Assembly (NCBI GenBank): GCA_024643365.1
Contig: JAHENC010000005.1
Coordinates: forward strand, 62,001 to 126,000
DNA length: 64,000 bases
Direction: 5' to 3'
Origin: Crocinitomicaceae bacterium
Lineage (GTDB): Bacteria > Bacteroidota > Bacteroidia > Flavobacteriales_D > Crocinitomicaceae
The position numbers and the translations under genes were made by a program. The notes beneath the pieces are model-generated. The model worked only from the letters and a program-made list of their open reading frames with translations. It was not told the origin of the DNA and did not search any database. Positions 16,809 through 18,121 of this stretch are shown here, in pieces (the first letter of the stretch is position 1; every line of letters begins with the position of its first letter).

Positions 16809-17063
16809 CTATAACGATGATCCGTTCAATTCTATGGCATCTAATGCTTCTGAGAGCGCTCTATCCTTGTTGGTGATGGTATTTCCTACATCATGTGTTG
16901 TTAAACTCACATGTACCTTGTTGTATTCATTGGTCCACTTAGGATGGTGGTTTTGTTTCTCTATTTCAACGCTCGCCTTCACCATCCAATCCATGGCATC
17001 TTTAAAAGAAGAAAAAACAAAGGTTTTTTTGAGTTCATTATTCGTTTCGGTCCAGTTGTTCAT
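16809..17063 (-). CDS. 4a-hydroxytetrahydrobiopterin dehydratase (PCD/DCoH family)
   Basis: Small 84-residue dehydratase that recycles 4a-carbinolamine pterins. The active-site signature is complete: QNHHPKW with the two catalytic His at 39 and 40, then His51 (NKVHVSL) and Asp67 (TNKD). No phenylalanine hydroxylase lies nearby, so the partner is unknown; many bacteria with lone PCD genes are thought to use it in other pterin or molybdopterin-related roles. It is divergent from the XRE-pentapeptide gene and shares a 155-base control region with it. Confidence 0.9.
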   Translation of the reverse strand: MNNWTETNNELKKTFVFSSFKDAMDWMVKASVEIEKQNHHPKWTNEYNKVHVSLTTHDVGNTITNKDRALSEALDAIELNGSSL

Positions 17064-17107: not shown

Positions 17108-17162
17108 AAAACAATTGGAATATATATTAAAACAACTAAAAGTAGTGTAAAAACAACTAAAA
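17108..17162 (+). repeat. Direct repeats AAAACAACTAAAA at 21-base spacing (iteron-like operator candidate)
   Basis: Two perfect 13-base copies of AAAACAACTAAAA lie at 17129-17141 and 17150-17162. A third, degenerate copy (AAAACAAttggaa) starts at 17108. All three begin exactly 21 bases apart, two turns of the helix, so proteins bound to them would sit on the same face. The last copy ends 26 bases before the -7 box of the XRE-pentapeptide gene, where a repressor would block the -33 region. Confidence 0.6.
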
Positions 17163-17188
17163 AATAAATTTAAATACATTATAAGTCT

Positions 17189-17196
17189 TAATTTTG
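17189..17196 (+). promoter_or_regulatory. -7 box TAATTTTG of the XRE-pentapeptide gene
   Basis: Exact TAnnTTTG match 22 bases before the ATG at 17219 and just downstream of the direct repeats. Confidence 0.55.
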
Positions 17197-17218: not shown

Positions 17219-18121
17219 ATGATGATCACTCCCAAATCCATTGGAATTAAGTTAACGAAAGCTCGTAAAGGAAAGAATTTCTCTCAAGCTACGCTAGCGC
17301 AGGAAATAGCTGTAAGTCCACAAGCGGTTGGAAAATGGGAACGAGGAGAATCGCTTCCGGATATCATTTTACTCAGTCGTATCGCTGAATTGTTGGCTGT
17401 TGATTTGAATTATTTTTCAGAACGAGGGATATCAAATGTCGTGAATGACGATAAGGCGCTTCCACAAGAAAATTATTCGTCCGAACTGGATTCCATTGAT
17501 AAAAAGAAAAAGCACAACTGGAACATGTCCGAAAGCAACTGGGTAAACGTGGATTTCTCGGGAATTAAAAATATTCAAGAAAGGTTTCATGCTGCCAATG
17601 TCAAAAAGTGCCAGTTTATTGGTGCCGATTTATCCAACGTTCAAATGAAATCCAACAACGTAGACCAATGCGACTTTAGCCAGGCGAAGTTGACGAATAT
17701 GCTGATTCAAAAGTCGAATTTTACACAGTGTTCCTTGAAAAGTGCGAACCTAAAGGAAACAGAATTCCTCAGTTCTTACCTTTCATTTTGCGATCTTACA
17801 AAGTCCGATTTGACCAAAGTACTTTTTTCCTATGCAGGTCTCGACAAACTGAATTTTGATCAAGTAGAATGGAGCCGAACAGCTTTTGTGAATACACGCT
17901 TATCGAATGTGCAGTTCAGTGGCACGATGGACCGCTGTTCCTTCGAGAAATGTTCCTTCAGCAAGGTAACGTTTCACAAAGTGAAATTCCTTCAGACCTT
18001 TTTTAAGTACAATGATTTGAAACGAGTGAAATTCATCGACTGTGAAGCGGACCGACTCACCTATGAGTTATTGAAACATGGCAAAGCGGATTTGGCTGGT
18101 GTAAAAGTTAGTAATCTCTAA
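17219..18121 (+). CDS. XRE-family HTH protein fused to pentapeptide repeats
   Basis: A 300-residue fusion. Residues ~7-65 are an XRE (Cro/C1-type) helix-turn-helix: GIKLTKARKGKNFSQATLAQ, then the recognition helix around VSPQAVGKWERGESLPD. A charged, Lys-rich linker follows (~80-105). Residues ~110-278 are pentapeptide-repeat sequence with Phe or Leu every fifth position (CQFIGADLSN, CDFSQAKLTN, CSLKSANLKE), many repeats starting with Cys, predicting a right-handed quadrilateral beta-helix. It probably binds DNA through the HTH, with the direct repeats in front of it as likely autoregulatory sites; the helix could mediate dimerisation or mimic nucleic acid. Related fusions occur in Firmicutes and Bacteroidota as far as I recall, without an agreed function. 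The ATG at 17222 is an equal alternative start. Confidence 0.8.
   Translation: MMITPKSIGIKLTKARKGKNFSQATLAQEIAVSPQAVGKWERGESLPDIILLSRIAELLAVDLNYFSERGISNVVNDDKALPQENYSSELDSIDKKKKHNWNMSESNWVNVDFSGIKNIQERFHAANVKKCQFIGADLSNVQMKSNNVDQCDFSQAKLTNMLIQKSNFTQCSLKSANLKETEFLSSYLSFCDLTKSDLTKVLFSYAGLDKLNFDQVEWSRTAFVNTRLSNVQFSGTMDRCSFEKCSFSKVTFHKVKFLQTFFKYNDLKRVKFIDCEADRLTYELLKHGKADLAGVKVSNL

Follow-up and report, generated by a model that had tools for sequence, protein, structure and literature searches.

Repressors of the phage CI/C2 type bind tandem operators at their own promoters and typically carry a C-terminal LexA/S24-like domain. Autorepression is common among XRE proteins, and many small XRE repressors act in this manner. 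The λ operators are 23-24 bp apart, with OR2 centred at -42. Bound to OR1 and OR2, λ CI activates its own promoter, PRM (PMC3708714). A further activating member of the XRE group is NceR of Neisseria; it switches on ompA and has three footprinted sites, located within the -35 region and upstream from it (PMC10470515). Among pentapeptide-repeat proteins the closest described systems are Qnr, MfpA, AlbG and HetL, and a term search of a review of such proteins (PMC8145042) returned neither "helix-turn-helix" nor "HTH".

The locus described here lies in a 64-kb window, by which we mean the whole stretch of DNA analysed (64,000 nucleotides), and consists of a gene for an XRE-pentapeptide protein preceded by a repeat array. 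It shares the HTH_3 domain with λ CI and P22 c2, and tandem sites at its own promoter with the CI/C2-type repressors. In contrast to the λ and P22 systems, its sites are 20-21 bp apart, no operator of the register lies over the -7 box, the C-terminal part is a pentapeptide β-helix, and no full-length relative is found in the phage collection. This C-terminal part resembles Qnr, MfpA, AlbG and HetL in that a predicted β-helix is followed by a short helix, whereas the N-terminal HTH and an operator of its own set it apart from them. NceR is similar in being an activating XRE protein, the sign favoured below, but it has 99 amino acid residues and its target is another gene; the term "direct repeat" is absent from PMC10470515. 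Among the records listed, literature searches yielded no title or abstract opening on an XRE-pentapeptide regulator or its operator, and within those searches the family seems to be undescribed. An XRE protein with a tandem self-operator is of a known kind; the fusion to a pentapeptide β-helix, the operator code, the one-target pattern and the two classes of promoter distance look new.

The repeat array in the window

The array and its -7 box lie in a 155-bp gap flanked by pcd (minus strand) and the XRE-pentapeptide gene (plus strand). The features are as follows:

16809-17063, minus strand: pterin-4a-carbinolamine dehydratase gene (pcd; PF01329), divergent neighbour, not a conserved target of the array
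17108-17120, plus strand: degenerate distal repeat AAAACAATTGGAA, 3 mismatches, 21 bp upstream of the first good repeat
17132-17146, plus strand: putative operator site 1, ACAACTAAAAGTAGT, fits ACAAC-N5-GTWGT without mismatch
17153-17167, plus strand: putative operator site 2, ACAACTAAAAAATAA, left half-site intact, right half-site degenerate
17189-17196, plus strand: -7 box TAATTTTG (TAnnTTTG type) of the XRE-pentapeptide gene, 26 bp after the array
17219-18121, plus strand: XRE (HTH_3) and pentapeptide-repeat gene, 300 aa, product the likely ligand, with a single target found

The 13-mer AAAACAACTAAAA is present exactly at 17129-17141 and 17150-17162, the two starts being 21 bp apart. The initial annotation had reported two perfect copies and a degenerate third at this spacing; copies and spacing stand, but the degenerate copy, at 17108, comes first and not third. 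It has no good counterpart in the genus relatives and is probably either a decayed third operator or due to chance; many relatives outside the window's genus possess a good site one register upstream. The perfect -7 box described as following the array is indeed found at 17189-17196; the TAnnTTTG consensus is taken from PMC9723704.

Taken from the window alone the array is only moderately improbable, and suggestive. When the 155-bp gap was subjected to 5000 dinucleotide shuffles, 26 of them gave an exact direct repeat of at least 13 bases at a spacing of 10-60, and the window holds two exact direct repeats of that length and spacing in total, one of which is the array. With up to 2 mismatches the single 13-mer occurs at chance frequency in the window (10 found, 10.53 expected). 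The two-site pattern without mismatch is found once in the whole genome, with two more matches at 3 mismatches, one being the overlapping degenerate copy. A two-site match with 3 mismatches is located on the minus strand (L002; G000:C12:16891-16924) before an ORF which we take to be YifB/ComM-like. A reading of the repeats as a minus-strand promoter (TTG-N19-TGTTTTTG, by eye) was rejected: it is not kept in G015, and that strand is also without a TAnnTTTG box.

Each unit of about 21 bp is read as a 15-bp imperfect palindrome, ACAAC-N5-GTWGY, with half-site centres 10 bp apart; the 13-mer of the annotation is the left half-site with its A-rich flanks. At least one site fitting ACAAC-N5-GTWGT without mismatch is present in 19 of the first 23 loci, and in 11 of the 23 this is true of the distal unit (e.g., ACAACCATTAGTTGT). 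Less in keeping with so simple a palindrome, ranking of dyads across these 23 loci places the centres between units at the top (columns 22 and 44) and those within units lower (12.0 seventh, 32.0 ninth), site 3 scoring best as an 18-bp form (centre 54.5); because the centres between units rank first, the half-sites alternate in direction along the array. One palindromic unit would fit one HTH dimer, and on tandem units two turns apart two or three dimers could sit next to each other along the same DNA face. Relatives outside the window's genus usually have three units, with starts that lie most commonly 89-90, 69 and 48 bp before the -7 box; at some loci units are weak or no more than two are clear. 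Within the genus there are two, starting 57-58 and 36-37 bp upstream; those of the window start at 57 bp (site 1, centre near -62) and 36 bp (site 2, centre near -41).

Conservation and search for further targets

Orthologs were drawn from 240 family genomes, named species genomes, 399 order genomes and 395 phylum genomes, samples which overlap. After loci L064-L068, which repeat others, had been dropped, 34 loci were counted, the window and 33 relatives from several Bacteroidota families. G111, in which the gene lies in two frames, is within the 34 loci and outside the 33-protein tree; remnant genes at contig ends (G261) and pentapeptide-only matches (L073-L075) were kept outside the loci examined. 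The records behind L064 and L072 are titled Chryseobacterium gleum and Polynucleobacter meluiroseus, respectively; their loci match window-genus genomes and the titles look mislabelled.

ACAAC-type sites about 21 bp apart are present upstream of the -7 box at all 34 XRE-pentapeptide loci: in the 23 upstream regions of the first set, in 4 further loci (two from other families of the order), and in 7 more from other families of the class and phylum. This bears out the description of an operator-like array, and the spacing, whose conservation in relatives the annotation had proposed as a check, is kept throughout (34/34). The TAnnTTTG box is perfect in 33 of the 34, the exception being L149 (TAATTTAG). 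In G015, the closest intact relative in the first search (XRE-pentapeptide protein 87% identical to the window's), both repeats are retained nearly letter for letter while the flanks have changed and the degenerate first copy is absent. The repeats are real and, with conservation as the decisive evidence, maintained by selection.

An array model built from sequence only, using 23 arrays (R1), was run over the 240 family genomes, 22 of which possess the XRE-pentapeptide gene (in G111 split by a frameshift). Twenty of the 22 contributed to the training set, and G111 and G120 did not. Directly upstream of the gene R1 matched 21 of the 22, with E-values of 3e-12 to 1.8e-4, including the untrained G111 (6.6e-9) and G120 (1.3e-7); in G163 the matches are in place and weak (1.6e-3 and 5.4e-3). 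At E ≤ 1.8e-4 matches across the 240 genomes occur at the XRE-pentapeptide gene only. The next best away from the own promoter in a gene-bearing genome is G239:C279 (1.2e-3), and in the other 218 genomes, a few of which contain remnants or just the HTH, the best value is 6.8e-4. At a permissive E ≤ 1 some match is found in 237 of the 240 genomes, so that the strong end alone is informative. The E-values are rough. Weaker second arrays could be missed, since weak matches fall to the strict filters and each genome gave hundreds to thousands of first-look candidates, of which 25 were scored. Applied to loci in hand, R1 recovered 11 of 11 out-of-sample XRE-pentapeptide loci (E 1.2e-11 to 0.024), some of which fit only weakly, and none of 23 controls at E < 0.1 (8 other HTH matches, 6 pentapeptide matches and 9 pcd loci), the best control being L038 at 0.14.

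The annotation had suggested that other copies might define a regulon. In the R1 scan of the 240 family genomes no second array as strong as that at the gene was found, and with 1 mismatch allowed the single-site pattern was, among the matches listed, more frequent than its reversed control in none of 31 genomes (in G000, 7 against 19, the reversed pattern being an imperfect control for composition). Exact single sites outside the own promoter are few among the matches listed (e.g., G112, G116, G117, G120 and G132).

In the 33-protein tree L146 (G541, f14), from another family, pairs with L090 (G107, g27) with strong support, and L147 (G524, f36) joins these two with weaker support; the grouping suggests transfer of gene and operator together between families. 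A similar ORF of about 120 aa (SVYPHY/SVYPLY ... MEKILR type) is located near the XRE-pentapeptide gene, before or after it, at seven loci of g27 and g34 (L080, L081, L087, L088, L091, L092 and L093).

The protein and its probable operator

The XRE-pentapeptide protein passes the gathering score for HTH_3 (PF01381; 46.5 bits, cut-off 23) and those of two pentapeptide families (PF00805, 64.2 bits, cut-off 20.2; PF13599, 72.7 bits, cut-off 38). AlphaFold2, run with 9 sequences (mean pLDDT 83.5, pTM 0.66), models an HTH at residues 5-59, a loose linker that is weakest at 65-88, a β-helix at approximately 107-277 and a helix at 279-287. Structure matches include designed solenoids, QnrB1, HetL, AlbG, EfsQnr and MfpA, with E-values down to 5.8e-8 and TM-scores that are low, about 0.2-0.5 by query length. 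The curated NCBIfam cut-offs are not reached for Qnr (34 of 240 bits), MfpA (31.7 of 360) or HetL (45 of 260), and the names Qnr and MfpA are therefore not earned. A LexA/S24-like repressor C-terminal domain is absent, the C-terminal part matching pentapeptide families and the SV2 luminal domain only. The best match of the HTH among solved chains is P22 c2 (E 4.7e-7); the RstR family lies below its cut-off (49.4 of 80 bits). Three other assignments were considered and set aside. For a defence role, the PADLOC matches (the best to RmrA, at 1e-10) map to the N-terminal HTH region, with one of them extending as far as residue 115; for a phage origin, none of 50,697 phage records covers 80% of the protein, with 6 partial matches; and for a plasmid origin, 1 of 35 matching plasmid records covers at least 80%, at 25% identity.

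The HTH is at least 58% identical to that of the window in the 32 other proteins compared, and QAVGKWE is present in 33 of 33. In G664 and G629 the pentapeptide part is 28% identical to the window's and the HTH 65 and 62%, respectively; as both retain the array, the array tracks the HTH. This type of HTH is found (E ≤ 1e-9) once per genome in 20 of 20 genomes scanned. From these three properties, namely an array that tracks the HTH, an invariant QAVGKWE and a single HTH of the type per genome, we infer that the XRE-pentapeptide protein is almost certainly the ligand, a view also favoured because the array stays with the gene while the neighbouring ORFs change. The annotation had proposed this ligand and thought autoregulation likely, which agrees with the presence of the array with the gene in 34 of 34 loci and with the lack of an equal match elsewhere in the 240 genomes. 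We consider it very probable that the array is the dedicated operator of the XRE-pentapeptide gene, at which the gene's own product would bind and act on its own promoter, with either sign.

The distance from the proximal site to the -7 box is 36-38 bp in 9 of the 34 loci and 46-48 bp in 25, no other distance being found; by contrast, anything from 20 to 53 bp separates the -7 box from the point where the protein match starts, and the sequence between array and box is diverged. With the -7 box occupying positions -12 to -5, as it does in a mapped flavobacterium (PMC9723704), the proximal centre falls near -42 in the shorter class and near -53 in the longer. The spacing class needs 4 changes over the tree, and well-supported branches force at least 3 of these. 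Three of the changes, however, each depend on one row (L147, L148 or L149). The -7 box of L149 is imperfect, and L148 carries a further ACAAC 17 bp from its box and sits on a long branch whose placement is unsure. Positive autoregulation is favoured over repression, and is judged slightly better than an even prospect, because the sites are found upstream of the core promoter at two distances that differ by one helical turn. The one-turn shift by itself suggests a face-of-helix contact with polymerase and not occlusion: a dimer at the proximal site would touch RNA polymerase and so activate its own promoter, for which λ CI at PRM offers the nearest model.

Negative autoregulation, in which the same ligand on the same array keeps the promoter low by way of dimers on the tandem sites, is the strongest competitor, with something like one chance in three. 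Repression is common for XRE proteins, and the HTH region resembles the phage repressors P22 c2 and, below the cut-off, RstR. A TTG at the -33 position is part of the Bacteroidota sigma-A promoter; the proximal site in the window's genus (centre near -41) reaches this region, and a TTG at -33-like spacing (spacer 16-23) occurs in 10 of the 34 loci, the window not among them. However, in 25 of the 34 the proximal site stops well short of -33 on the upstream side, the -7 box is left free by every site of the register, and simple occlusion has no need of spacing classes one turn apart.

A bolder form of positive autoregulation, which we regard as rather unlikely as a whole, is that of a self-contained positive-feedback element whose sole target is its own promoter. 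Its helically phased tandem sites would give switch-like expression of a DNA-shaped pentapeptide β-helix, the true partner of which would be a protein such as gyrase and not other genes. The β-helix might vie with the operator for the HTH or signal the state of that partner, and gene and operator would spread together between Bacteroidota families. That the partner is gyrase-like is a guess from the fold.

It is improbable that a different regulator binds the array and that the XRE-pentapeptide gene is just its target. The identity of the ligand is drawn from co-occurrence only, which leaves some room for such a protein, but the 240 genomes hold no equally strong match where the XRE-pentapeptide gene is lacking, and even in distant families, or where the pentapeptide part has diverged, the array persists next to a gene whose recognition region is invariant.

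Less probable again, and by a good deal, is control of the divergent pcd, alone or jointly with the XRE-pentapeptide gene, which the annotation had considered possible. In the window, as in genus relatives L005, L076, L077 and L078, the two divergent genes do flank the array. However, other loci have different ORFs adjoining the array (by eye), pcd in L069 and L070 is upstream with the same orientation, the array is found at E < 0.1 in 0 of the 9 pcd loci that lack an intact XRE-pentapeptide gene, and a TAnnTTTG box towards pcd is absent from the window gap and from the stretches in four relatives (less about 27 bases next to pcd). G032 (L006/L036) and G036 (L007/L037) retain C-terminal remnants of the XRE-pentapeptide gene beside pcd and no array, which points to repeated gene loss within the genus. 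G002 (L038) has pcd and no XRE-pentapeptide match at 1e-8, and its gap contains a decayed relic of the array, one good and one broken site about 21 bp apart. In these three genus relatives, then, loss or reduction of the XRE-pentapeptide gene goes with absence or decay of the array; by these comparisons it follows the XRE-pentapeptide gene and not pcd, and control of pcd as a conserved function was rejected.

Random 21-base periodicity in an AT-rich gap, the alternative named by the annotation, is ruled out for practical purposes by conservation (34/34 loci, 11/11 out of sample, 0/23 controls), in spite of the 26 shuffles in 5000 with a repeat of equal length and the chance frequency of the single 13-mer.

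Significance for the XRE-pentapeptide family

For this apparently uncharacterized family, present in several families of the Bacteroidota, the analysis provides a putative DNA-binding code, ACAAC-N5-GTWGY in tandem at about 21 bp, and one target found per genome. One protein and one 155-bp promoter suffice for a direct test of ligand, sign and phasing, and the system may serve as a clean natural example in which to study the geometry of activation at TAnnTTTG promoters. In the predicted protein a fold of the DNA-mimic type and a DNA-binding head would be joined in one chain.
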